From positions 1-64,000 of the forward strand of contig JAAEZI010000016.1 in assembly GCA_018222915.1 (NCBI GenBank): 64,000 bases of DNA, given 5' to 3'. Each line of letters begins with the position of its first letter. The stretch's first letter is position 1. The notes below the pieces were generated by a model. That model was not told the origin of the DNA. It saw nothing but the letters and a program-made list of their open reading frames with translations, and ran no database searches. Positions 3,711-49,467 of the stretch are shown here, piece after piece. This stretch comes from Algicola sp. GTDB lineage: Bacteria; Bacteroidota; Bacteroidia; Flavobacteriales; Flavobacteriaceae. A program made the translations under genes and the position numbers.

Positions 3711-5750
3711 TTAAAATTTAACAATAAATGCTCCCTTTTCACCTGTATAGTGAAAAGGGAGCTGTTTTTTTAGACAACTAGAACGCCATCTATTTACATA
3801 GGATTTGTAATTGCTAGCGTCTGCAATAATCATCTTAGGATTAATAGAATCAATTAAGCGCTCTAGATTTATTTTTGGTGAATTTGTTAATAAGATATAA
3901 TCTGGTTGAAAGCTTTTAGTGTGATATACCCCTAAACTATCAACTACCAAAATCAGCGTATCCTTGACTTTAAAGATGTGTTCAAGGTTTTGATATTCAA
4001 TAGTGTCTATGAAGTTAGAAACACGGTAATTAGCCAGCATCATATTTCTCGTGGCAAGTGTACTATCTAAGTTGTGAAATATTGTAAGATGATGATCGTG
4101 TTTTTGAGCCATGATCGTGTGCCGACTTTTATGAAAAATGATGAATTCTCGAGATCTCGTCTGGTGTCTTATGTATATCGAGACACTTTGGAATAATAAG
4201 ACACTGAGAAGTAAATGTCTTAAAGATCGATAATCTCTACGCTTTTGAAACATGATTAAAGCTAATAGTATGATGTAGCTTGCGATGACTTGAAAAATAT
4301 GAATTGATATATCTTTAAAAAGAAAGGCTTCTTGCAAAGATACCCAAGACACCAATGTATTCATGGTCTGAATGATCAGTCCGTAGAATTGAGCCAAAAT
4401 TTCAGGAAGTAGATGTGTGATTGCCAAAAGAATGACAAGGATGCCAAATCCTAAGATGAAACCTAAAAATGGAATAATGGCTAGATTCGAAATAAAAAAT
4501 AACCCAGGGAATTGATGAAAATAATAAAGACTTATGGGTGCAACACCTATTTGAGCGGCCAAAGTCACGGTTGTTATATTCCAGAAATAATCAACAATTT
4601 TCCATTGAGGTTTCCAAGTTTGGTATAAAATGGGTTGTATGGAAACAATGGCTAAAACGGCTAAATAGCTCATTTGGAAGCCAACCTCAAACAAGAGCAT
4701 AGGCCTAAATAAGAGAAGTAATAAAATAGAAAATGCCAAGGTGTTGTAAATGTTAGTAGGTCTTCTTAAGTGCATGCTCACTGCAATAATGCTGAACATG
4801 GTTACGGCTCGGGTAACTGAAGGTGATAAACCTGCTACAATCGCAAAACACCATAATATGAGTACGATGATACAGGCTTTAAATGTTTTGCCATGCTTCA
4901 CTCTTTCCAATGGACGTAATAGATAATTGAGAAGCCATAAAATAATACCAATATGAAGACCCGAAACTGCTAGAATATGAATGGCACCAGCATTAGCATA
5001 AGATTCGTAAGTTCTTTTGTCAATATCCTGACGCTGTCCGAGGAGTAGTGCATTAATGATGGCCAGTTCACTTTCTGCGAAATTATATGATTTCAGTTGC
5101 GTATTTATGTGGTGACGGAAAGTTTCTGCATAGCCTAGAAGTGTATGAGTTGTTGTTGATATTGTTAGTAGTTCATTAGGTCCAAGAGTGATTTGATTAT
5201 AAATGTATTGTCGCTCTAAATAACTTTTATAGTTGAACTGATCTGGATTGAGAGGCGGATTAATTGTTTTAAGTTCGGCTTCAGTGAACAGCACATCATC
5301 AACCTTGTAATGTCTCGTAAGGGAGTCACGTTTAATGTTAACTAATAGTTTTCCACATATTTTTATTCGGTCGACTTCGAGAAGCTCTACAATATATTTT
5401 TCGTGGTAAGTGGAAGGCTTTAGACGTTCTCTAATCTTAAAGATCATCGAATGATTAGCGTCAATTAAGAGATTGTCGTGTTGACTGTAATGGGTCTTAA
5501 AGTTTTTTTGATTGTGGAGGTTATAGGAACAAATACCGAGAATTACTGCTAGTGAGAATGTAAGAATACCAAAACTCACCTGCCTTTTTAAGTTGTGTTG
5601 CGCTCTTTTATAATCGATAAATAAGAACAGGAGAAGGACTAAAGCAACAACTAATGTGTGCGTATTTGGAATCGAATGCCAATGTGCAATTGCTATTCCA
5701 ACGACCAAACAAATGGTCAATTTAATGACTATAAAATTAAGAGGTTTCAC
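3711..5750 (-). CDS. comEC: ComEC/Rec2-family DNA-uptake channel protein
   Basis: A 679-aa inner-membrane protein of the ComEC/Rec2 family, which moves single-stranded DNA into the cytoplasm during natural transformation. The N-terminus has two hydrophobic segments and the OB-like DUF4131 region. The Competence domain follows with the family landmarks ALLLGQRQDIDKRTY and HILAVSGLHIG (about residues 235-270) and then about eight more membrane helices. After about residue 540 a soluble tail of about 140 residues replaces the long metallo-beta-lactamase domain of Bacillus ComEC, and I see no HxHxDH motif in it. It is the last gene of the surE-lpxB run. Whether the strain is competent cannot be judged here. 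Confidence 0.88.
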   Translation of the reverse strand: MKPLNFIVIKLTICLVVGIAIAHWHSIPNTHTLVVALVLLLFLFIDYKRAQHNLKRQVSFGILTFSLAVILGICSYNLHNQKNFKTHYSQHDNLLIDANHSMIFKIRERLKPSTYHEKYIVELLEVDRIKICGKLLVNIKRDSLTRHYKVDDVLFTEAELKTINPPLNPDQFNYKSYLERQYIYNQITLGPNELLTISTTTHTLLGYAETFRHHINTQLKSYNFAESELAIINALLLGQRQDIDKRTYESYANAGAIHILAVSGLHIGIILWLLNYLLRPLERVKHGKTFKACIIVLILWCFAIVAGLSPSVTRAVTMFSIIAVSMHLRRPTNIYNTLAFSILLLLLFRPMLLFEVGFQMSYLAVLAIVSIQPILYQTWKPQWKIVDYFWNITTVTLAAQIGVAPISLYYFHQFPGLFFISNLAIIPFLGFILGFGILVILLAITHLLPEILAQFYGLIIQTMNTLVSWVSLQEAFLFKDISIHIFQVIASYIILLALIMFQKRRDYRSLRHLLLSVLLFQSVSIYIRHQTRSREFIIFHKSRHTIMAQKHDHHLTIFHNLDSTLATRNMMLANYRVSNFIDTIEYQNLEHIFKVKDTLILVVDSLGVYHTKSFQPDYILLTNSPKINLERLIDSINPKMIIADASNYKSYVNRWRSSCLKKQLPFHYTGEKGAFIVKF
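3730..3771 (+). terminator. Strong intrinsic terminator of the thioredoxin-like gene, inside comEC coding sequence
   Basis: A perfect 13-bp stem (GCTCCCTTTTCAC / GTGAAAAGGGAGC), 7-nt loop, followed by a T-run on the plus strand. It lies 26 bp after the plus-strand stop but within the last codons of the minus-strand comEC gene. On the minus strand no T-run follows, so it should act only on plus-strand transcripts. Confidence 0.85.
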
Positions 5751-5789
5751 CTCTCTAATATAGTAAATATTCTATATATAGAAAATATA

Positions 5790-6308
5790 CTACATTATTC
5801 GTCTCGCCTGCACATAGGCTAGGTACCAATAGCGTTCAGATAATGTGGACGTGATAACTCCTTTACTAGTCGTAGAATGAATAAATTCAACATAACCTGG
5901 CCTCACTTTAGTAACAATAGCGACATGGTTGATTCTTCTACTATTTTTTTTAGTAGCAAAAAATAAGAGATCACCTTCCAAAACTTCCTTGACATCAACC
6001 CAATCTCCTCGCGTAGATAGGTCGGCAGTAGTTCGTGGTAATAAAATATCTTCTTTCTGAAAAGCTGTTACAACAAGACCAGAACAGTCCATACCTCGTT
6101 TGGTTGTGCCACCATATTTATAACGGGTACCTTGAAACGATTTGGCATAATCAATAATATTTTCTATCGTTTTTGACGTTGCACTAGTTGTCGTTCTTGG
6201 ATGTTTCGCTGTATGTGTTGTTTTATTTTTTTTAGTAACAATACCTTTGGAAGATTTACAATTTGCAAAACAAAGACACAAGGTAAAAAGTAGAATGATT
6301 TTTTTCAT
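5790..6308 (-). CDS. NlpC/P60 (C40) peptidoglycan endopeptidase lipoprotein
   Basis: A 172-aa cell-wall hydrolase that cleaves peptide stems of peptidoglycan. The N-terminus is a lipoprotein signal with the lipobox FANC (Cys17), so the protein is probably anchored in a membrane facing the periplasm. A Lys/Thr-rich linker leads to the NlpC/P60 domain from about residue 45. The catalytic triad is visible: Cys75 in MDCSGLVV, His128 in INHVAIV and His144 in EFIHST. It lies between comEC and lpxB on the same strand, 39 bp upstream of comEC, so a shared transcript is likely. The enzyme family is secure; the exact bond cut is inferred. Confidence 0.9.
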   Translation of the reverse strand: MKKIILLFTLCLCFANCKSSKGIVTKKNKTTHTAKHPRTTTSATSKTIENIIDYAKSFQGTRYKYGGTTKRGMDCSGLVVTAFQKEDILLPRTTADLSTRGDWVDVKEVLEGDLLFFATKKNSRRINHVAIVTKVRPGYVEFIHSTTSKGVITSTLSERYWYLAYVQARRIM

Positions 6309-30844: not shown

Positions 30845-31426
30845 CTACAGTTTGAATACAACGTAAGCCATGTATTGAAAATGGTTGTTGTCAAATCTAT
30901 TGTCTTTGTGGTTAAATGCGAATTTTCCAACACCCTGAAGGCTTAAGCCAATAGTTGGGCTTACCCAAATGATGCCTCCTAGAACCAAATTAGCTGAGGT
31001 GTTTATTTCATCAACGGAGAAAATACCGAGTCCTCCACCAGTGTACAAATCAATCCATAAAGTTTCTGGGAATAACTCATCAGAAAAGTAATATTTTAAA
31101 TAAGTATTGGTTGAAAAGTAACTAAATGCTTCTGGCAGCGAGCCATTATCGATTGTAGATGTGATTTTAAATCTGTTCAATGTAAAATCCTGCTCTATTG
31201 ATAAATTTCTAGACCATCGTCTTTGAACTGCCACTGCAAAAGGACGGTTAAATTCGAATTCACCCAGTTTCGCAAATGGATTTCTAGTTCCTAAACTTCC
31301 AACAGCGTTTACACCAACATTTATCGTCCATGATTCGATGCTTCTATAGGCTCTTTTAGTTAATTGGGCCTGGCCATCAAAACTAAATAGAGCTACTAAA
31401 CATAAGAATAAAATTGCCTTTTTCAT
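30845..31426 (-). CDS. Outer-membrane beta-barrel protein of unknown function
   Basis: A 193-aa secreted protein. The start is placed at ATG 31426, which gives the Sec signal MKKAILFLCLVALFSFDGQAQ; an ATG 24 bp upstream only adds residues before it. The rest alternates polar and aromatic residues in short strands and closes with HFQYMAYVVFKL, a terminal-strand pattern ending in hydrophobic residues, as in small OmpA/OmpW-like eight-strand barrels of Bacteroidota. No OmpA peptidoglycan-binding domain is present. It lies 80 bp downstream of the nucleotidyltransferase gene on the same strand, so it may or may not belong to that transcript. Confidence 0.7.
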   Translation of the reverse strand: MKKAILFLCLVALFSFDGQAQLTKRAYRSIESWTINVGVNAVGSLGTRNPFAKLGEFEFNRPFAVAVQRRWSRNLSIEQDFTLNRFKITSTIDNGSLPEAFSYFSTNTYLKYYFSDELFPETLWIDLYTGGGLGIFSVDEINTSANLVLGGIIWVSPTIGLSLQGVGKFAFNHKDNRFDNNHFQYMAYVVFKL

Positions 31427-31506
31427 AAGTAATATAATGTGTAAATTCAAAGGTATGTTTTGAATAAATATATTGCAAATATACCTTAAAGTTATAATTT
31501 TTTGAG

Positions 31507-32577
31507 TTAACCCTTAAGGAATTTCGCTTTTAATTCCTTAAATATGCGTCTTCTGTCTTCATAAACCGCAAATCTATAATTTTTATTGCTAAGGAAGGTG
31601 CTCAATCGAGAAGGAATTAGACGCATATAGGCATTCCATGATAATAACGTCTTTCTTACATTGTTACGGGACTTTGAATGAAGTCGCGATTGGAAGCGTT
31701 TGAGCTTTTTAAGGTTAAAATTAGCCGTTTTAAATATATCAAATAGGAGGCTGTGAAGCGTCATATAAGAAGTGATCACCTTTTCGTTGTAATTTTGATT
31801 GAGTTCTGGATGGTGATGAATAAGTACTATTGAATCATAGGCGCTTCGCATTCCTAACTTCGAGTAATAGTGGCCTTCATCATTAATTTGAAAATTAAGA
31901 ATGTTATGTAAGAATAGGTCTTTGTTACTAGGAATAGGAATACGCTCTTTGAATTGTTTGTTCTTTAAAATGGAAGGACTCAATAAATAGTCAGAAACTG
32001 GTTTGTTTAAAACATATTTATGAAGTTCTATGGCACATAGTCCATCCTCTTTAGCCAATCGATCTAAATGTTTGTGCTCGAAAAAACCCGACTTTAGTCC
32101 AGATCTCTTTTCGATATATCCATGGTCTTTTAGGAGTTGATAGGCGCTTTGAATATGGTCGTGCTTGACAAGAATATCAATGTCTCCAAGCATGCGTTCT
32201 CCTAGATGCTCATAATAACCACTTACAAGCATTGCTGCACCTTTTAAGAAAGTATAGTCAATATGCTCCTTGTTAAAAATATCGGATATCGTTTGTATAT
32301 CTATTAATAAGTCTTGGTTGCGATTTGTATTGATCGCTGTGAGTTGTTCTAAATAGTTTTCTAACTCTTTTGGTATATATTCTAATAGGTTCTTTTGTTG
32401 TAGTCTGGCAAAAACGGTGGTTAAAATAAGGTGGTCACTGGCTATCACTACTAAAGCATCCCAATCGATATCTTCGGAAACAATTTGATGTTTTAATGTT
32501 TCCGTAGGATAATCAAAACTAAGAATGTCTGCAATTAAATGTAAACTGTCTTTGTATGTGTTTAGGTTCTTTGCCAA
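31507..32577 (-). CDS. Nucleotidyltransferase-family protein (NTP_transf_5-like)
   Basis: A 356-aa protein of the uncharacterised nucleotidyltransferase family found in exopolysaccharide and peptide natural-product loci. The polymerase-beta-like core is visible: LKGAAML at about 111-117, an Arg in GERML, then GDIDILV (131-137) with the metal-binding Asp132 and Asp134. A basic C-terminal half, rich in Lys/Arg, follows. In some lasso peptide clusters (paeninodin/pseudomycoidin type) a member acts on the phosphorylated peptide. Here it lies 51 bp downstream of the HPr-kinase-like gene on the same strand, matching that arrangement. Substrate unknown. Confidence 0.85.
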   Translation of the reverse strand: MAKNLNTYKDSLHLIADILSFDYPTETLKHQIVSEDIDWDALVVIASDHLILTTVFARLQQKNLLEYIPKELENYLEQLTAINTNRNQDLLIDIQTISDIFNKEHIDYTFLKGAAMLVSGYYEHLGERMLGDIDILVKHDHIQSAYQLLKDHGYIEKRSGLKSGFFEHKHLDRLAKEDGLCAIELHKYVLNKPVSDYLLSPSILKNKQFKERIPIPSNKDLFLHNILNFQINDEGHYYSKLGMRSAYDSIVLIHHHPELNQNYNEKVITSYMTLHSLLFDIFKTANFNLKKLKRFQSRLHSKSRNNVRKTLLSWNAYMRLIPSRLSTFLSNKNYRFAVYEDRRRIFKELKAKFLKG

Positions 32578-32628
32578 AATTATATCATTCTAAGCCAAAA
32601 ATAAGGAAAGTATCTATTTACTTGTTCT

Positions 32629-33762
32629 TTAAGCGTCAAATAGTGACTTAAACTCAGCGATGGCATAATCATTGTCACTGTAGTCGAGTTGGAAGTAGGT
32701 GACAGATTTTAACCACTCTAAAAATCTGAAGGCATGATCTTGGTGCGGAGAAACCCACGAGTCTGGTATGAGTGTCTCTAGTGCTTTTTCAGCTGAAGTT
32801 TGCTCAAGCAATGAAGGTTTACTAGGTGCATACTTAACAGATACTATTTTACGACATGGTAATTTCGTATGGCCTCCTTTGATCTCGGAAATGGGAGGCA
32901 CATATTTAATGGGGATATTTTTAGTCCCATTTTTATAGGTGGTTAAATTTTCAAAGCCTTTTATTTTAGCCGACAACATATTGAAAGCACCTTGCTTCAC
33001 TGAAATCGCTGCAGGAAAAGCATACAACATCGCGTCCTCATAAAATGGTGTGAAGTCATCTGCTAAGACGTCAAAACCTTCAGCCATGAGCAAGGCAGTT
33101 AAGGTGCTTTTTCCATTGCCAGAGTTCCCAATGATCATAATGGCTTCTTTGCCATTACTAACTGTAGATGCATGGAATGAAGCCACCCAATTATCAGTAG
33201 AGGTTTCGTGAATCAAATTGGTGAATTCCATGGCGAATTGGCCCTGAAGAAAATGGTATTGATCTACACTGTAACTTTTCACATGTTGCTTGTTTTTGCA
33301 CATATGAAGCCTATCATCTAGCTGAAAAATATCAAATACAGTATTTACTGAGTTTGATGGCGTTACTTGAAGGTGTTCTAGAGGTGGATGGAACAATCGC
33401 AAGATGGCTTCCGAACCAAAATTTATAGTGATCGTGGTGCCCTGAATTTGATAGTCTTTGGAAATCATCGGGTCAGGAATGGTATCAATCTTGGCGTGTG
33501 TGGTTTTGATATCCTCGATACGATTGGCCTCTTCTAAAAAGTTTGAAATTTCATTAAAGAGCTTGAATGACGTTGCTTCATCAATGTTTAGTGTAATTTG
33601 AAGCTGGTCAGTAAAAGTTGTTTTATCGTCAGCACTGAGAAAGACCTCAATGAGTCGATACACGTTTTTGGATACCACGGTATATCTATTCGAAACTTGA
33701 AACCATAAAACTACAGTGTCATCAAGTTCCATTACATACTTCGGAGTGAGATCCGTTTTCAA
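32629..33762 (-). CDS. HPr-kinase-like ATP-binding protein with a PqqD-like N-terminal region
   Basis: A 377-aa protein with a clear HprK-type P-loop core: FHASTV (about 196-201), Walker A GNSGNGKST (212-220) and the metal/catalytic pair in VLADDFTPF (about 232-240). True HPr kinases phosphorylate a PTS carrier, but no PTS gene is seen here. Related kinases in peptide loci phosphorylate a serine of a precursor peptide. Residues 1-90 (with SKNVYRLIEVF and a following helical stretch) resemble the small PqqD fold that binds leader peptides; this is a weak, fold-level impression. It starts 10 bp after the stop of a 53-aa secreted peptide gene and is followed by the nucleotidyltransferase. Confidence 0.85.
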   Translation of the reverse strand: MKTDLTPKYVMELDDTVVLWFQVSNRYTVVSKNVYRLIEVFLSADDKTTFTDQLQITLNIDEATSFKLFNEISNFLEEANRIEDIKTTHAKIDTIPDPMISKDYQIQGTTITINFGSEAILRLFHPPLEHLQVTPSNSVNTVFDIFQLDDRLHMCKNKQHVKSYSVDQYHFLQGQFAMEFTNLIHETSTDNWVASFHASTVSNGKEAIMIIGNSGNGKSTLTALLMAEGFDVLADDFTPFYEDAMLYAFPAAISVKQGAFNMLSAKIKGFENLTTYKNGTKNIPIKYVPPISEIKGGHTKLPCRKIVSVKYAPSKPSLLEQTSAEKALETLIPDSWVSPHQDHAFRFLEWLKSVTYFQLDYSDNDYAIAEFKSLFDA

Positions 33763-33772
33763 AATATCTTAA

Positions 33773-33934
33773 TTAATCAAAAGGGTTTCCTCCTGGATCA
33801 GGTGGAGAAGATGCGTGTGCCTTTTTTGGATTCAAAATAAGAAATGTACCCACAGCTGTAAGTGCTGCGTACTTGCCCATTTTTTTCATGGCTTCCTTAC
33901 GAGTAATTTGATTCTGAGGACTATTTCTTTTCAT
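33773..33934 (-). CDS. 53-aa precursor-like peptide with signal-type leader and Ser/Pro/Gly core
   Basis: A short gene read directly on the minus strand. The N-terminus begins MKRNSPQNQITRKEAMKKMG, whose TRKEAMKK resembles a twin-arginine signal n-region with RK in place of RR. A hydrophobic stretch (AALTAVGTFLIL) and a c-region NPKKAHA follow. An AxA-type cleavage after AHA would release the 12-residue peptide SSPPDPGGNPFD, which has two serines as possible phosphate acceptors. An exact TAnnTTTG box lies 18 bp before the ATG, and the HPr-kinase-like gene starts 10 bp after the stop. The ordered leader, promoter and operon position argue that it is real; its function is inferred. Confidence 0.75.
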   Translation of the reverse strand: MKRNSPQNQITRKEAMKKMGKYAALTAVGTFLILNPKKAHASSPPDPGGNPFD

Positions 33935-33951
33935 TAGAATTTTTAATAGGT

Positions 33952-33959
33952 CAAAAATA
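33952..33959 (-). promoter_or_regulatory. Putative -7 promoter element of the peptide/kinase/nucleotidyltransferase cassette
   Basis: On the minus strand this reads TATTTTTG, an exact TAnnTTTG match 17 bp before the ATG of the 53-aa peptide. No TTG is found at the usual distance upstream, so the promoter may need an activator. Confidence 0.45.
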
Positions 33960-34263
33960 AATAAAATATTGTTATTTGGTCGTATAATTGATTTTAATTT
34001 CTATAAAACCGCCTAGATTATAACAATTTTTTAAGATTTATTTTGATTGTTGTTTGTGATTTATATCGTGTTCTTTAGTTTATCTACGAGTGAATGATTA
34101 GTTCGGTTTTTCAAAACTAGACCATCTTCACGTAGACTATCTTCTTGATTGTTGTTTGTTTGATCGTGCGTTCTTTTAACCAAGATAAAAAATCTTCTTG
34201 ATAGTGACGTTTATTTTGTATCCTACACGTTACAATTCATGTGTTAGTGTCAAAGAAATCATT
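33960..34263. other. Non-coding gap with a duplicated 15-bp element
   Basis: About 300 bp upstream of the peptide cassette with no convincing gene. The 15-mer TTGATTGTTGTTTGT occurs at 34043-34057 and 34145-34159, each followed by a similar tract ending near ATCGTG and TTCTTT, so a segment of about 35 bp is imperfectly duplicated 102 bp apart. On the minus strand a frame from TTG 34183 to the stop at 34061 could encode 40 hydrophilic residues, but it lacks an ATG and an obvious ribosome site. The repeats may be operator sites for the cassette or traces of an older duplication. Confidence 0.4.
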
Positions 34264-34298
34264 AAAAAAGCACACGATGACGTGGCGTGTGCTTTTTT
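34264..34298 (-). terminator. Bidirectional-looking terminator after the T9SS cargo gene
   Basis: A perfect 13-bp stem (AAAAAAGCACACG / CGTGTGCTTTTTT) with a 9-nt loop, flanked by an A-run and a T-run, so it can work on either strand. It lies 29 bp beyond the minus-strand stop of the large secreted protein and separates that gene from the peptide cassette. Confidence 0.92.
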
Positions 34299-34327
34299 TC
34301 TTTATGTGAACCTCAAAAGGTTACCAT

Positions 34328-37300
34328 TTACTTAATAATGACTTTTACAGATTTCTGTTGAGCTTTATCAGAAATTTTCACGACATACACACCTGCATTT
34401 ACATTTGATATATCTATTTGATTGTTTAAGGTATTCGAATCCAATGCCACACTCATGATTACGCGACCTTGTACATCATAGATCTCAGCAACAGAAGCAC
34501 TGTTTAAACGTCCTTTGACAAACAATGCCTTTGGCGATTTAGTGGTGTAAATTTGAATACTACTGAAGTCTTCATCTGGTGTAGACAGGGCATCTTCAGA
34601 TACTCGAAGGAAAAAGCGTCCTGTGCCAGATAAATCTGTTGTTGGTGTGAATACATAGTCTGACGTATTGAGTAAAGTCATGGTGTTGGTAAGCGTATCT
34701 TCTAAATACACAGAAACTGACTCCGGAATATTCGCTTCCAAAATACTAATCGTAAGTTGCTCACCTTGGTTAGCATCCACTCCTAAAGGAAATACCGTGT
34801 TGTTAAGTCCAGAGTATGCCACAGATTGAGCTGCTAGATTGAGTCCTTCATTAGCTTCAACTAAATGCGAATACAATGCAAAATCAGGAATTGTATTTCC
34901 GAACAAAGCTGAGTCATATCCAGGATCCATACCTAAGCTAGCATTATCATTAAAATAGATATCTGTCTTAGAGGTAGCGGTATCAGTTGTCATTTGTAAT
35001 TTTAAATGCGCGAGGTTGTCAAGATCGGACACTCTTCCAACAATAAAATCATCATTCGTACCAATAGTTCGCATACTAGGCTCAAAGGCAATCGTTCCAC
35101 CTCCTGTGATAGAAGACACAAAGAAACCTTGTCCAGGTGCAATTTTAGCTGTTGGATTAGCATCTGCATACGCTTGATTCCATACAACAAATCCGTCTAA
35201 CACATCACCATCGTATCCATAGACTCCAAAATTAGCAGGATTAAATGCGCTCGAATTCGCTGCAAGAAAATCTGTTAATAAGATATAGGAAGGATAAGGA
35301 TTGCCAATGAGATTAAACGTGTTACTTGACCCAACCGAAATAGGAACAAATTGGGTGGTAGTGGCTACATCTCCTAAGAACTCAAAAGTTGAACCTGTTG
35401 CTTCAGTAGACGCACTTCTATAACCTATTCCTGCTTGAATAACTGATGCGTCATCTGCTGCCGTATAATTGATGTATTCATTCGTGTTATTGTCAAATGG
35501 ACCAAATAAGAAAGAAGGTACACCGTCAATAGTTCCAGAAGGTAAATCAGGATTAGCCGTTCTGAATGCCAAAAATGTTTGATCAGGACTAGTAACAGGT
35601 GCCGAAATTAAATCATTCGATCCAGTAGTAGATCCTGTTGGAGCTATTTGGTTGACGTGTCTGTTATAGATTACTTCTCCTTGTGCATTACCTCCAGTAA
35701 TTAAACTAGAATAAGAGGTAGAAACAGAGTTCAATTCTAAGGTCCCGAAGTTTACCAAACCAGAAACAGAAGTAATAGATTGTCCTGCACTTACGGTTGC
35801 GGTTGCTGCATCACTGATGTATAAGTTGTTGACTTCAATATCGGTTCCTACGATGTAAGTACCATCTAGAACATAGGCGTTTTCAGTGCCTGTGGTATCA
35901 GATGGCGGATTAGGTGACCATCCGTTATCCACATATAAAAGACCATCAAACACACTGATAAGTTTAAAATTATCAAATCCTGAGAAGCCAGTACTACCGT
36001 TGTCTCTAATACTCACTTCTAATGCTATTGTAGAAAGGGCATCTGGGATGTCAATAGTTACTGTGCCTTGATCTGTATCAATGGCTCCGCCACCATCTAC
36101 AAGAAATACGTAAGGTTGCGGTACACCATCATAGATGAGTCGATATTTGGCGTCGTCCACATCATTTCCATAACCGTCAACGTCCCAATCAAAAGAAAGT
36201 TTGACGTTTTCAAAATTGCTAACATCGATGGGATCAAGTGCTAGCGTTGCAAAATCCGAAGTACCATTCTCGCCTTCGTCATTTAAATCATTTTCACCAA
36301 AAATATTATTTGAGAACGACGGATTATCTATAGGTGCTGCATCAGCGATATCTATAATCCCATAGTAGCCATCAACGGCCCAACCATTATCAAATAAGGC
36401 AACATCGTTAGTGTAAGTCCACTCAGGAGTTGCACCGTCAAAGTTTTGTTGAGCAATAGTGATGATTGGTCCATCCACATCAAAAGGATTACTTATGGCT
36501 GGACTTAAACCACCACCAAAAGCTAAAATGGTGGTAACGGTTTCTTTTTCTGTAAAAACAATGGTATTAAGTATGGCTGTGCCATTTAACATTGTGTAAT
36601 CAATAATTCCTGGTTCCATAGAGCCACTAGATACAACAGATACTGTCCCATTGTAATCCAAATCTTGGTTACTATTGGCGTCTACTGCATATACTACTGG
36701 AGACGGTGTCATTATTTCAAATTGAAACGTGTCAACAGGTTCTTGATTGAATATCAAGGCGTCTGCAATGACTTCAATTCTGTTATCATCAGCCACAATA
36801 GGTGTTTGTGCACCACCTGCATCAAAAGCAAGAAATACTGATCCAGTCGATCCATCTGCCGTCGCAGATGCTATGGTGAGTTGAATTTGATCATTATCTG
36901 TAACTGCCGTTTTAAAGGTGGCATAAATATCAAATGTTTTTGAACTGTCATCTGCAGCGGTTATTCCAGAAATATCCATAAATGACGTCATTTCTGAAAC
37001 GGTTGTTACTTCAGAAACATTCGTCGTGCCATCAAAAATAGCTAAAGCTGCAATATTTGAGCTGTTAGCGACAGTAAACTCAAGGTCTGATAAAGTCGTA
37101 CCAAGCGCATCTGGATCTGTTAAATCGTCTCCGCCATCTTGAACTGAGAATTCACCAATTTTAATGGCATTCGTCGTAGTTAAACCAGAAGTTGCACTGT
37201 AAGATAAGTAGTCAATATTGTCCGTTGGATCAAATGCCGTTGCCACAATGTTAGACTCGGTGCTATTAGGTGTGACAGCATTAATGGTACCACTCATTCT

Positions 37301-37876
37301 GATACCAGGCAATGCCACGCCGTATGCAGACCAACTTGGTTCTTGACGTACCCTTAACCAACTCCCATTGGTGAGTGCTCCCCAAGCATAAAGTCTAAAT
37401 GTAATAGTACCTGCAGTTCCAGAATTAATACTTAACCCAGTAAGATTCGTGATCTGAGGTGTTGAAGGCGGTAAAGTTTGCGTACCGCCAACTGGAATTC
37501 CAGCTGTTGCAAAATTATCTAAGCTGTAAAACAATTGCCAGTTTGCAGGCCCTTCAGAATTCCGTCTTAACCTAATATCTATGGATTGTATTTCGATATC
37601 GTTGGTTGCACTCGCTGTAGTAGACCACTGCATGTAGTCGTTTCCAGAAATAGCTTCTGCTAATGAGGTCCCAACCCAACTGTTGGAAGTGAAATCTGTT
37701 CCTGCTCTTAGAACGACACCTGATCCTCTTGTAATTCCTACAGAAGAAATAGAAGGATCATTTCCTGTTGCGGTCGGTCCGACAATATTGGCTCTATCAA
37801 TAGTGACTATTGGGCCTTGGGCAAAACTGAATATAACGAAAAGCGTCGCTAAAACTGTTAAGTAGATGTTTTTCAT
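34328..37876 (-). CDS. Large secreted protein with T9SS type A C-terminal sorting domain
   Basis: A 1182-aa extracellular or surface protein. It begins with a Sec signal (MKNIYLTVLATLFVIFSFAQ). The N-terminal part (about residues 25-205) looks like a beta-sandwich of a kind common in flavobacterial secreted proteins, and the whole chain is rich in Asp, Thr, Ser and Gly, with many beta-strand stretches and no catalytic motif that I recognise. The last 80 residues form a T9SS type A sorting domain, with IYDVQGRVIMS, INAGVYVVKI-like spacing (VNAGVYVVKISD) and a basic end KSVKVIIK. The sorting tail directs export by the gliding/secretion machine. Adhesin or binding role is possible; function unknown. 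Confidence 0.88.
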   Translation of the reverse strand: MKNIYLTVLATLFVIFSFAQGPIVTIDRANIVGPTATGNDPSISSVGITRGSGVVLRAGTDFTSNSWVGTSLAEAISGNDYMQWSTTASATNDIEIQSIDIRLRRNSEGPANWQLFYSLDNFATAGIPVGGTQTLPPSTPQITNLTGLSINSGTAGTITFRLYAWGALTNGSWLRVRQEPSWSAYGVALPGIRMSGTINAVTPNSTESNIVATAFDPTDNIDYLSYSATSGLTTTNAIKIGEFSVQDGGDDLTDPDALGTTLSDLEFTVANSSNIAALAIFDGTTNVSEVTTVSEMTSFMDISGITAADDSSKTFDIYATFKTAVTDNDQIQLTIASATADGSTGSVFLAFDAGGAQTPIVADDNRIEVIADALIFNQEPVDTFQFEIMTPSPVVYAVDANSNQDLDYNGTVSVVSSGSMEPGIIDYTMLNGTAILNTIVFTEKETVTTILAFGGGLSPAISNPFDVDGPIITIAQQNFDGATPEWTYTNDVALFDNGWAVDGYYGIIDIADAAPIDNPSFSNNIFGENDLNDEGENGTSDFATLALDPIDVSNFENVKLSFDWDVDGYGNDVDDAKYRLIYDGVPQPYVFLVDGGGAIDTDQGTVTIDIPDALSTIALEVSIRDNGSTGFSGFDNFKLISVFDGLLYVDNGWSPNPPSDTTGTENAYVLDGTYIVGTDIEVNNLYISDAATATVSAGQSITSVSGLVNFGTLELNSVSTSYSSLITGGNAQGEVIYNRHVNQIAPTGSTTGSNDLISAPVTSPDQTFLAFRTANPDLPSGTIDGVPSFLFGPFDNNTNEYINYTAADDASVIQAGIGYRSASTEATGSTFEFLGDVATTTQFVPISVGSSNTFNLIGNPYPSYILLTDFLAANSSAFNPANFGVYGYDGDVLDGFVVWNQAYADANPTAKIAPGQGFFVSSITGGGTIAFEPSMRTIGTNDDFIVGRVSDLDNLAHLKLQMTTDTATSKTDIYFNDNASLGMDPGYDSALFGNTIPDFALYSHLVEANEGLNLAAQSVAYSGLNNTVFPLGVDANQGEQLTISILEANIPESVSVYLEDTLTNTMTLLNTSDYVFTPTTDLSGTGRFFLRVSEDALSTPDEDFSSIQIYTTKSPKALFVKGRLNSASVAEIYDVQGRVIMSVALDSNTLNNQIDISNVNAGVYVVKISDKAQQKSVKVIIK

Positions 37877-46717: not shown

Positions 46718-47774
46718 AGTACTTCATGTGGTGAACTTATCATCATTTGGAGGGATTCAGAAATTGATTTTGGATCTCTCTGAAGAGCTGAATACCCTCG
46801 GAAATATTCAATGTCAGATGTTAGCGACTCATGAAGTTGATGTCGATAAAGAGACACTACCCACTAATGTGAATATCATTAAGGTACATCATTTACCTTT
46901 TTTTAAGCGTATCAGTGTCATCTTCAAAATAATGAAAACTACAGACATTATTCACTTTCACGGGCCATATACGTTGTATCAAGCCATAGGTTTGTTCTCT
47001 AGAAAAAAGGTGGTGTATACAGAGCATAGTACTTTGCAAGTTGCCAACATAAAAAACTCCATAAAACATCTCATTCAAAAGCGAATCTTCGGGAAGTTTT
47101 ATCTGGAATTTATTAATATGGTCATTTTTATTTCGGAATGGATAAAAAGCGATCTTAATCTCAATAACAAAAATCAATTGGTAATTTACAATGGTTTGTC
47201 TTATAAAGAGCCAAAGGTGGAAGTGCATCAAGATTTTATTTTGACGATTGCTGCAAGACTCGTGCAAAAGAAACGCGTGCATTTAGCAGTAGAGCTCATG
47301 CACCTTTTAAAAGATGATCCGTCCATTAAATTGCATGTCATTGGTGATGGTAAAGAACTTTCAAATTTGAAGTCAATGGCAGGAGATTTATTAGATAAAA
47401 CGGTTTTCTTCTTAGGTTACAAGGAAAATGCCTATGATATCATCGCTTCTTCCGATTTGTATCTCATGACGACAGATATGGAAGGTTTTGGGTTAGTCAT
47501 TCTTGAGGCCATGATGAGCGAGACCCTAGTTTTAGCCTTGGCTGATTCTGGTGGTCCTACTGAAATTTTACAACAAGACTTTCCGTCACTTGTAGTGGAT
47601 GATGTTGAGGCCATGGCGAATGCTGTGCGCTATTGGAAGAATCATCCCACAGAGAAAGTCAACGTAGAAAAAGATTTGAAACAATTGTATTTTGAAAAAT
47701 ATACAATAGAAATAATGACAAAAAAATATGCGGAAGTATATTTGAATTTAGCTAATAGTGGAAAACACAACTGA
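46701..47774 (+). CDS. GT4-family glycosyltransferase
   Basis: A 357-aa GT4 enzyme. The N-terminal loop FGGIQKLILDLSEELN, the middle YTEHSTLQ and the donor-domain start LTIAARLVQKKRVHLAVELM are typical. The donor site TDMEGFGLVILEAMMSETLVLA has an intact E(x7)E. It should add a sugar to the repeat unit. It overlaps both the preceding gene (17 bp) and, if a GTG start were used, the following asparagine-synthetase-like gene. Confidence 0.9.
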   Translation: MPKICKVLHVVNLSSFGGIQKLILDLSEELNTLGNIQCQMLATHEVDVDKETLPTNVNIIKVHHLPFFKRISVIFKIMKTTDIIHFHGPYTLYQAIGLFSRKKVVYTEHSTLQVANIKNSIKHLIQKRIFGKFYLEFINMVIFISEWIKSDLNLNNKNQLVIYNGLSYKEPKVEVHQDFILTIAARLVQKKRVHLAVELMHLLKDDPSIKLHVIGDGKELSNLKSMAGDLLDKTVFFLGYKENAYDIIASSDLYLMTTDMEGFGLVILEAMMSETLVLALADSGGPTEILQQDFPSLVVDDVEAMANAVRYWKNHPTEKVNVEKDLKQLYFEKYTIEIMTKKYAEVYLNLANSGKHN

Positions 47775-47778
47775 TTTT

Positions 47779-49467
47779 ATGAAAGGTATTCCAAGTTTTA
47801 TAGGGTGTGTTCGACGGAATTCGAGTCCAAAAAAATCTCATTTAAAAGGGATGAACACCATTTTTGATCATGGTGATTTTACGTTATTGACCACGCATTC
47901 GAATGATTCAGAACTGAGAACATTTCATCATTCTGATCAGTCTTTTTTATGGACTGGTGGATTAGACTTAGGAAGTGATTTTAATTTGACATCTTTCGAT
48001 CATCACAATGCGGATCACAAATTCGTTTATGTCTCATACACTAATAATACCCTTGAATTACATACCGATCATTATTCTAAAATCCCTTTAGTTTACGCCC
48101 TACATGATAACAACCTTTATTTTTCCAGTTCATTGGAATTGTTGTTGAAATATATAGGCGGCGAAAAAAAACGCATTAACAAAAACGGTCTGTTATTCTA
48201 TTATAATTTTGGATTTACGGCGTTTGAGCATATGTTGTTGGAAGATGTAAAATCTTTGGCAGGCGGACAAACTTTAAAGTATGCGAATGAAGAGTTGCAA
48301 ATTGAGAGTTATTACACGGTTTACAACAATCAAGCCTATAGTTCTAAGAGTTTAGAGGATCACATGGCCCTAATTGATAAGTCCCTTTTAGATGCTACCC
48401 AATCTACTCTAGAACCTTATGAACACATCGGTATCGCCTTAAGTGGAGGCGTAGATTCAGGATATTTGGCACAAAAAATTAGTGAGTGCGGCAAGTCGTT
48501 TAATGCGTATACCTTAGGGTTTAAAGATGATTATAACGAGTTTGAACGTGTTGATTATTTATCTAAACGTTTGAATTTTACGACTAAGAAAATTATTTTA
48601 AGTCCGGAGGATATTGTAACTAACTATCTCGAGGCTAGTAAACATGCTAGTTTTCCTGTTGGATTTAATAATTCGATTCTGAATTTTATTTATAAGGAAG
48701 CACACAGCGATGGTGTGTCCATTATGTTTGATGGTGATGGTGCTGATCGTCTTTTTTTGGGCATGAATAAATATGTGCAACTAAAAAAAATATTGAAATT
48801 CTATGCTATGCATAAAGCATGTCATACCCATCACCTTATGGCAAAACTGTTAAAGATCATAAAGCATCCAACAGCTCAAAAACTGCGCTTTTACTTTGAA
48901 AAATTCAATAAAAATTTTCAGTTTTATGGAGAACGTAAATTGCCTAATAGTTTGGTGTATGATGAGGACTTCGAAAACTTGTTACATGATATTGCATTAC
49001 CAAAAGAGTTAAAATTGATAAATCATCCGATTGATAAATGGTTGTTTTTCTCTTTTTTCAGTGTGTATTATACACCCACATTTTTCTTTCATACGCCTTA
49101 TGAGTTACAAATAAAACAAGGCATAGTTTCAAACCCACAATTTTGGTCTGATGATTTGGTGAATTTAGCTTTGACTATTCCTGTAGATCAAAAACTACGT
49201 GGAAATACAACCAAACTAGTGTTGCGTGAGGCTGCACAACAGAAAATTGATGATGGTTATTGGAATTTATCCAAAATTGGTCTTCAGAATTCTTACAGTT
49301 ATCTCAAGCAATCCGATCTTGGTAAGAATTTTATAGCGGAACAAGTTAAAGAAATAAAAAAAGGAGAAGCATATCACGAATTAAGGGAAGCCATGCCAGA
49401 CAAAACTATTGATGCAGAACGCTTAATACCATTTCATATTTGGAATGAAAATATGTCGCAAATATGA
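47779..49467 (+). CDS. Asparagine-synthetase-like ATP-dependent ligase lacking the N-terminal catalytic Cys
   Basis: A 562-aa protein with the AsnB fold. The synthetase domain is intact at its PP-loop (ALSGGVDSGYLA, SGGVDS at about 222-227) and at IMFDGDGADRLFLGM. The N-terminal glutaminase-like domain begins MKGIPSFIGCVRR, without the Cys at position 2 that releases ammonia from glutamine. It may use free ammonia or an amine, or form another amide. In polysaccharide loci such proteins are thought to amidate uronic acid carboxyls; related enzymes without the Cys also close lasso peptide rings. A GTG 21 bp upstream is an alternative start. Confidence 0.85.
   Translation: MKGIPSFIGCVRRNSSPKKSHLKGMNTIFDHGDFTLLTTHSNDSELRTFHHSDQSFLWTGGLDLGSDFNLTSFDHHNADHKFVYVSYTNNTLELHTDHYSKIPLVYALHDNNLYFSSSLELLLKYIGGEKKRINKNGLLFYYNFGFTAFEHMLLEDVKSLAGGQTLKYANEELQIESYYTVYNNQAYSSKSLEDHMALIDKSLLDATQSTLEPYEHIGIALSGGVDSGYLAQKISECGKSFNAYTLGFKDDYNEFERVDYLSKRLNFTTKKIILSPEDIVTNYLEASKHASFPVGFNNSILNFIYKEAHSDGVSIMFDGDGADRLFLGMNKYVQLKKILKFYAMHKACHTHHLMAKLLKIIKHPTAQKLRFYFEKFNKNFQFYGERKLPNSLVYDEDFENLLHDIALPKELKLINHPIDKWLFFSFFSVYYTPTFFFHTPYELQIKQGIVSNPQFWSDDLVNLALTIPVDQKLRGNTTKLVLREAAQQKIDDGYWNLSKIGLQNSYSYLKQSDLGKNFIAEQVKEIKKGEAYHELREAMPDKTIDAERLIPFHIWNENMSQI

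Follow-up and report, generated by a model that had tools for sequence, protein, structure and literature searches.

A short peptide gene with an HprK-like kinase and a nucleotidyltransferase homolog behind type IX secretion cargo genes in Flavobacteriaceae: a candidate peptide-modification system

Results

We analyzed a 64,000-nucleotide stretch of an Algicola sp. genome (contig JAAEZI010000016.1, positions 1 to 64,000; hereafter, the window), which contains a compact minus-strand cassette of three genes encoding a 53-aa peptide, an HprK-like kinase and a homolog of NTP_transf_5 nucleotidyltransferases (NTase) (Table 1). The kinase gene starts 10 bp after the stop codon of the peptide gene, and the NTase gene starts 51 bp after the stop codon of the kinase gene; these positions, and the single TAnnTTTG box in front of the unit, are as given by an earlier interpretation of the window made without database searches (the sequence-only reading), which proposed that the three genes form a compact peptide-modification system distinct from, and smaller than, lasso peptide clusters. 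That interpretation is in part borne out here, and it is extended by two elements that it did not contain, i.e., a domain fused to the kinase that resembles the recognition elements (RRE) of ribosomally synthesized and post-translationally modified peptides (RiPPs), and a gene for a cargo protein of the type IX secretion system (T9SS) upstream of the peptide gene. We consider it fairly probable that the cassette specifies a RiPP-like system that makes a linear phosphopeptide and is coupled to type IX secretion.

Table 1. Features of the cassette and its immediate surroundings in the window
Feature	Position	Strand	Basis
53-aa precursor peptide gene; leader ITRKEAxKKMGKYAALTAxGTFxxLNPKKA, tail HASSPPDPGGNPFD	33773..33934	-	
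Ser43 codon, near-invariant hydroxyl residue, proposed phosphorylation site	33806..33808	-	Ser in 65/66 peptides
HprK-like kinase, 377 aa, with fused N-terminal RRE-like domain	32629..33762	-	Pfam, NCBIfam, predicted structure
RRE-like domain of the kinase, residues 1-80, three strands then three helices	33523..33762	-	Foldseek and structural alignment
HprK-type catalytic domain, residues 190-377	32632..33195	-	H197, K218, D235, D236 invariant; 1ko7_A
NTP_transf_5 (PF14907) nucleotidyltransferase homolog, 356 aa	31507..32577	-	Pfam
T9SS type A cargo, 1182 aa, directly upstream of the peptide	34328..37876	-	TIGR04183
TAnnTTTG promoter-like box of the peptide-kinase-NTase unit	33952..33959	-	sequence; 17/17 genus upstream regions printed, by eye
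Small conserved 201-aa protein, signal-like N-terminus, downstream neighbor	30845..31450	-	after NTase in 20/20 genus loci
Terminator-like hairpin, GCACACG-N9-CGTGTGC with A/T runs, between cargo and peptide genes	34264..34299	.	sequence only

The short peptide is a real gene under strong purifying selection, its tail included. For 17 of the 21 copies from the genus, the mean proportion of nonsynonymous differences (pN) was 0.077 and that of synonymous differences (pS) was 0.560, giving pN/pS of 0.14; for residues 40-53, i.e., the tail, the respective values in the 17 genes were 0.038 and 0.429. This set omits L026, whose peptide is identical to that of L025, and L034, L038 and L041, whose peptides have another length. 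Because pN is far below pS, the peptide gene has to be considered real and constrained. In the 20 loci of the genus that were fetched, the peptides are 77-96% identical to that of the window, compared to 41-52% for the kinases and 34-54% for the NTases, and the order T9SS cargo, peptide, kinase, NTase, small conserved protein is found in 20/20 (the cargo being identified by similarity to that of the window). Since the order is kept throughout, and the peptide is kept next to far more diverged enzymes, the cassette is more than a chance arrangement; the conservation of the peptide beside both enzymes, on which the sequence-only reading depended, thus holds in other genomes of the genus.

In peptides from different genera, the leader ITRKEAxKKMGKYAALTAxGTFxILNPKKAQA hardly changes, and the tail is variable, from a few to ~50 residues. 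The residue at the position of Ser43 is Ser in 65 of the 66 scorable peptides and Tyr in the remaining one; in this count the row of L198 was set to Ser by hand, and L101 and L103 were left out as their frames end too early to be scored. The frames of the latter two (in G172 and G315) carry in-frame stops. The sole scorable Tyr peptide (L089, 9611-9742) lies in genome G303 (89% complete), in which neither of the two enzymes was found. A divergent, possibly decaying peptide lies beside a kinase-NTase pair in Lutibacter sp. HS1-25 (L202, 7757-7903).

The anatomy of the leader is like that of a signal peptide, with a basic start, a hydrophobic stretch YAALTAVGTFLIL (mean hydropathy 1.94) and the c-region NPKKA, which is followed by Q in 53 of 66 peptides (as parsed) and by H in nine. 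The leader may thus be exported and cut by signal peptidase I. This peptidase is said to cleave often before Q in Bacteroidetes (the Q-rule; PMC5837995 and PMC10653852); if applied to this leader, such a rule would favor a mature 14-mer rather than the 12-mer of the sequence-only reading.

The kinase was found in 21 of 23 genomes of the genus; in the other two (G011 and G016, both 99% complete) none of kinase, peptide and NTase was found. In a sample of 299 genomes of the family, 28 had both peptide and kinase, one had the kinase only, four had the peptide only, and 266 had neither (Fisher p 5.5e-34 for co-occurrence). In this sample the kinase profile matched 29 genomes, and the peptide profile matched 34 at E up to 0.01, two of which (G173 and G298, E 0.006-0.007) were discounted as chance matches because their frames are unlike the family. 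The kinase was thus seldom without the peptide (28 of 29 kinase genomes have both), in agreement with the sequence-only reading. In the kinase-only genome G069 the kinase begins at base 39 of its contig, and a second search of this genome for the peptide found none. Among 395 genomes sampled from the phylum, full-length kinase matches (E below 1e-120) were obtained in five and strong peptide matches in these same five, all of which belong to the family of the window; a peptide match in G699 (E 5.6e-4, within a 304-aa frame) was treated as chance, and matches of the kinase profile in 25 more genomes (E 1e-8 to 1e-16) were excluded, as they begin at residue 174 or later, are mostly short and lie around the P-loop. 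In a sample of 246 genomes of the order, seven had a match, two of them from other families (G399 and G404). Because presence and absence agree in this way, the kinase tracks the peptide and is not a general-purpose enzyme placed here by chance. The precursor and the enzymes form one system.

This system does not have to be contiguous. Genomes G387 and G511 have six peptides each on three contigs, and a single kinase-NTase pair on a further contig. In L195, L198, L200 and L201, a second, intact peptide lies beside kinase remnants, i.e., decayed copies that stem from partial cassette duplications; remnants of this kind would be expected if a single kinase is enough. The enzymes can be located elsewhere in a genome, and can serve up to six peptides.

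The catalytic part of the kinase is distant from the curated families. The window kinase scored 19.2 bits against Hpr_kinase_C (cut-off 33.3) and 64.6 bits against TIGR04352 HprK_rel_A (cut-off 200), in the latter case with residues 195-374 alone; TIGR04352 is nevertheless the best curated family, and matches 28 of the 28 aligned kinases at E up to 1 (best 1.4e-23). In an AlphaFold2 model (predicted local distance difference test, pLDDT, 92), residues 88-377 align with PEP carboxykinase 6v2l (Z 13.3, 276 residues, 5.0 A), and residues 190-377 align with HPr kinase 1ko7_A (Z 11.9, 126 residues, 3.0 A). The predicted structure clearly places residues 88-377 in the HprK/PEPCK fold, the superfamily that was expected. 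H197, K218, D235 and D236 are invariant in 28/28 aligned kinases. A conserved His-Lys-Asp-Asp set of this kind, essential by mutation, is reported for lasso-peptide kinases in a review (PMC9266682).

When folded alone, residues 1-92 of the kinase (pLDDT 86) are predicted to form three strands and three helices in the order of a PqqD-like winged helix. The six best Foldseek rows for this N-terminus are RREs of lasso B1 proteins (best E 0.014), namely five TbiB1 chains and one second B1, from entries with a bound leader peptide. In structural alignments the best chains were 6jx3_B (Z 8.4, 78 residues, 2.5 A), 5v1u_A (7.6) and 5v1v_A (7.4), values that, by the aligner's own caveat, are common among best matches without true kinship at Z 7-8; below these rows, at Z 5-6, are RRE-bearing RiPP enzymes and PbtF. 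We favor the match because all seven rows with Z of at least 5 are RiPP proteins. The N-terminal 80 residues would thus have an RRE-like fold, with modest resemblance, and the model supports a role of this domain in recognition of the precursor leader. The interpretation of the cassette as a peptide-modification system is strengthened, because the kinase carries such a domain.

The NTase matches PF14907 with 111.8 bits, above the gathering cut-off of 31.2, and K112, G113, R128, D132, D134, H170, E184 and H186 are invariant across 21 aligned rows. Of the 29 genomes of the family sample that have the kinase, 25 have the NTase gene next to it; in G076 and G170 the NTase gene is located elsewhere. 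A sequence search of the PDB with the NTase alignment returned one row, fumarate hydratase, at E 0.069. Of characterized homologs, PsmN is reported to put one or two hexoses on the phospho-Ser of pseudomycoidin, or possibly to nucleotidylate it first (PMC9266682), and LppN appeared inactive in a heterologous host (PMC13381572).

The most surprising element of the cassette is the coupling to T9SS. The cargo protein of the window scored 42.6 bits against TIGR04183 (cut-off 23). We searched 57 loci (33 from the family sample, 10 from the order sample and 14 further contigs; partly non-independent), and found 68 peptides at E up to 1e-9 in 56 of them, the locus L091 having only a degenerate one. 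A same-strand gene lies upstream of 59 of these peptides; four follow another peptide, four are at a contig end, and one has an opposite-strand neighbor. The TIGR04183 type A sorting domain was detected in 52 of the 59 same-strand genes directly upstream (E up to 0.01, some matches possibly being under the cut-off), whereas genes with T9SS tails account for about 0.6-2.4% in six of these genomes (gene totals estimated from genome size). The gap between cargo and peptide is at most 40 bp in 27/59 (with the peptide start taken from the profile). The seven non-matching cases presumably comprise L103, whose broken peptide frame follows a type B cargo, L081, L086 and L093, the kinase remnants in L198 and L201, and L088 or L202. 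In G387 and G511, 11 of 12 peptides immediately follow a T9SS cargo gene, and the twelfth follows another peptide; this count used a custom tail profile built from cargos of these loci and so is not independent of them, as the TIGR04183 count of 52/59 is. The pairing persists in these two genomes, where the enzymes are located elsewhere. A T9SS cargo gene is, in genetic terms, the usual partner of the peptide gene.

The paired cargos are varied, including leucine-rich repeat (LRR), YDG, fibronectin/galactose-binding, M43 metalloprotease and lamin-tail proteins; two match a T9SS nuclease family weakly. In L080 and L102 the order is cargo, peptide, cargo, peptide, kinase, NTase. In L027, L034 and other loci of the genus, several T9SS cargo paralogs lie in a row, and the last one alone adjoins the peptide. 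Upstream of the peptide of L081 there is a regular array of five consecutive related 119-aa open reading frames (4080-6000), and this peptide lies between two related Lcl_C-like proteins.

In the window, the cassette and its cargo gene abut a polysaccharide operon of the opposite direction, and a large exopolysaccharide/capsule region, divergent from them, extends over 38151-62978; few of its genes were scanned with profiles (acetyltransferase, sulfotransferase), the others being named from the sequence. It includes a 569-aa Asn_synthase homolog (47758-49464), which scores under the cut-offs for lasso cyclases and amidotransferases. Nucleotide-sugar epimerase, UDP-sugar dehydrogenase and NusG-like genes flank several other cassettes, and the same types of genes flank the stand-alone kinase-NTase pair of G144 (identification by profile in L137, and by similarity clusters elsewhere).

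Of the remaining features of the window, the 201-aa protein encoded downstream of the NTase gene has no Pfam or NCBIfam match, and relatives of it occur at several other loci; that it is an outer-membrane barrel is a guess from its sequence. A promoter/terminator scan of the window yielded nothing exceeding its shuffles, and did not call the hairpin between the cargo and peptide genes, the loops that it permits being of at most 8 nucleotides. A role in anti-phage defense was considered and dropped, since the kinase, the NTase and the downstream protein had no PADLOC match at E up to 0.001. A plasmid search gave 17 records, with identity of 21-27%.

Discussion

Among known systems, the closest are the linear polyphosphorylated peptides (LPPs) of Bacillota (PMC13381572, Nat Commun 2026). 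The LPPs have in common with the cassette a short precursor with a conserved N-terminal leader and a variable tail, an HprK-like kinase and an NTP transferase encoded with the precursor, an RRE, the lack of a cyclase, and a frequent location near capsule loci; in both cases the acceptor Ser (proposed, for the cassette) is near the new N-terminus, as AQS (AQSNWK) in LppA and as AQxS/AHxS here. There are also differences. The RRE is discrete in LPP (LppB), whereas the cassette has no separate RRE gene, PF05402 (PqqD) had zero matches in genome G000 at E up to 1e-5, and the kinase itself carries the RRE-like domain at its N-terminus; the LPP cluster includes a SipW-like peptidase and an MsbA-like exporter, neither of which was detected with Pfam and NCBIfam among the five genes from 30845 to 37876, the region scanned; the leader motif is YxxPxVLxHQxIxFETxxS in LPP, compared to ITRKEAxKKMGKYAALTAxGTFxILNPKKAQA here; and the cassette is from Bacteroidota, with its peptide genes paired with T9SS cargo genes. 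By analogy, the cassette would work like LPP; by its defining features it is not a member of LPP.

The paeninodin and pseudomycoidin clusters (PadeK, PsmK, PsmN; PMC9266682) have the His-Lys-Asp-Asp kinase, the NTase homolog and the Ser acceptor in common with the cassette. They also have a B2 protease and a macrolactam cyclase, neither of which is among the five genes from 30845 to 37876, a discrete RRE rather than a kinase-fused one, and an acceptor Ser that is C-terminal in the phosphorylated lasso peptides, in contrast to residue 43 of 53, at the start of the tail, in the cassette. A third point of comparison is the anchoring of T9SS cargo to lipopolysaccharide (LPS) in P. gingivalis (PMC13086638), which involves the same class of surface proteins and a seryl-bearing linker; its abstract names no such peptide, kinase or NTase, so that the link is ours. 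Among the matches listed in a literature search (titles and starts of abstracts of open-licence papers), there was no description of a T9SS-linked HprK/NTase peptide system.

For the proposed phosphopeptide system, we infer the following pathway. The kinase would bind the conserved leader via its own RRE-like domain and phosphorylate the invariant Ser at the start of the variable tail, as suggested by the enzyme family, the catalytic residues and the invariance of this Ser. The NTP_transf_5 enzyme may then add a hexose or a nucleotide to the phosphate, by analogy with PsmN. Because the leader has the shape of a signal peptide (NPKKA then Q or H), the modified peptide would be exported and cut by an ordinary signal peptidase I, which would leave about 12-14 residues in the genome of the window. 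Outside the cytoplasm, the peptide might work with the T9SS surface protein encoded just upstream.

Several observations weigh against this scheme. Four genomes of the family sample (G157, G295, G303 and G315; 82-92% complete) have the peptide, and neither enzyme was found in them; nor was the kinase found in the peptide-bearing genome G404 (66% complete), or the NTase in G088 and G172 (82-87% complete). In G399, cargo, kinase and NTase lie together (L176, 9420-13016) with no peptide between them; it should be noted that this genome, which has the kinase, also has a peptide, on a different contig and at its edge (L170). The resemblance to RREs is modest, with 1 of 999 chains reaching Z 8 and a best Foldseek E of 0.014, and PqqD is missing from the 10 Pfam families matched by the window kinase at E up to 1. 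The peptides of L081, L086 and L093 are not behind T9SS cargo genes, their neighbors being Lcl_C-like (below cut-off) in L081 and FolD-like in L086 and L093; in L090 the neighbor is on the opposite strand. In the window, the terminator-like hairpin stands between the cargo gene and the peptide gene. Finally, the h-region of the leader could stay in the membrane as an anchor, because it is conserved far beyond what a signal peptide needs.

One version of the phosphopeptide scheme, a sub-case with a defined role, makes the modified peptide a structural partner or anchor of the cargo, the phospho-sugar on its Ser tying the surface protein to capsule or LPS glycan. The pairing is independent of cargo type (LRR, YDG, fn3/galactose-binding, M43 protease, lamin tail and one type B), polysaccharide genes lie beside several cassettes and beside the kinase-NTase pair of G144, PsmN installs hexose on phospho-Ser (PMC9266682), and P. 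gingivalis cargo is bound to LPS through a seryl-bearing sugar (PMC13086638), all of which would suit an anchor. However, genomes with 14-88 T9SS tails carry just 1-6 peptides, the conserved unit has no glycosyltransferase, and no glycan genes were recognized, by name rather than by profile, around the kinase pair of G387 and G511, so that we regard this version as rather unlikely. To a similar degree we doubt that the product is a free secreted phosphopeptide with a signaling or antagonistic function, the T9SS gene being its target, its receptor or a hitch-hiking neighbor. The fixed leader, variable tails, several peptides per kinase and patchy distribution are indeed like those of other RiPPs; yet within the genus purifying selection on the tail is strong, which is unusual for an antagonistic peptide, no transporter was found with Pfam and NCBIfam among the five genes from 30845 to 37876, and no recurring exporter was recognized in the neighborhood clusters, which were viewed as clusters rather than profiled one by one.

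Less probable still is that the kinase and the NTase modify a glycan or the cargo itself, and that the small protein is a membrane-bound adaptor or regulator. The h-region of the leader could be a transmembrane helix, and HprK-like and NTase homologs have been found in polysaccharide loci (PMC13381572). Such an adaptor would hardly explain the RRE-like domain of the kinase, the invariance of Ser within an otherwise variable tail, or the location of the one Tyr peptide in a genome (G303, 89% complete) where neither enzyme was found. At the far end is a remnant lasso cluster with the Asn_synthase homolog as its cyclase, which we hold to be extremely improbable. It is true that the kinase and NTase families are common to paeninodin-type clusters, and that an Asn_synthase homolog is present in the window; however, this homolog scores 48.2 bits, compared to the lasso cyclase cut-off of 525, lies about 14 kb away within the polysaccharide operon, and has no match in 20 loci of the genus (E 0.01) or in 35 loci of the family sample (E 1e-5). 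The Ser is away from the C-terminus, and we rejected this origin, there being neither an adjacent cyclase nor a B2-like gene beside the cassette. The absence of both, together with the conservation of the unit, agrees with the claim of the sequence-only reading that this is a distinct system, smaller than lasso clusters.

Conclusions

The biological roles of LPPs and paeninodins are described as unknown, and both are described as restricted to Bacillota (PMC13381572). A parallel system of marine flavobacteria, with peptides for the most part encoded directly behind T9SS surface proteins, is a testable genetic lead on the roles of such phosphopeptides, and the fusion of an RRE-like domain with the kinase offers a one-protein model for leader-guided peptide phosphorylation. 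It is also conceivable, and we suggest it tentatively, that the cassette represents a general accessory of T9SS, in which selected cargos are co-encoded with a peptide whose Ser is decorated by a central RRE-kinase and NTase (phospho-sugar or phospho-nucleotide), and which is exported as a covalent or tightly bound part of the cargo, i.e., an anchor, a cap or a glycan link. If so, this would be, to our knowledge, the first RiPP-type modification that serves secretion or surface anchoring rather than producing a free natural product. The cassette thus adds a possible new component to the surface display by T9SS.

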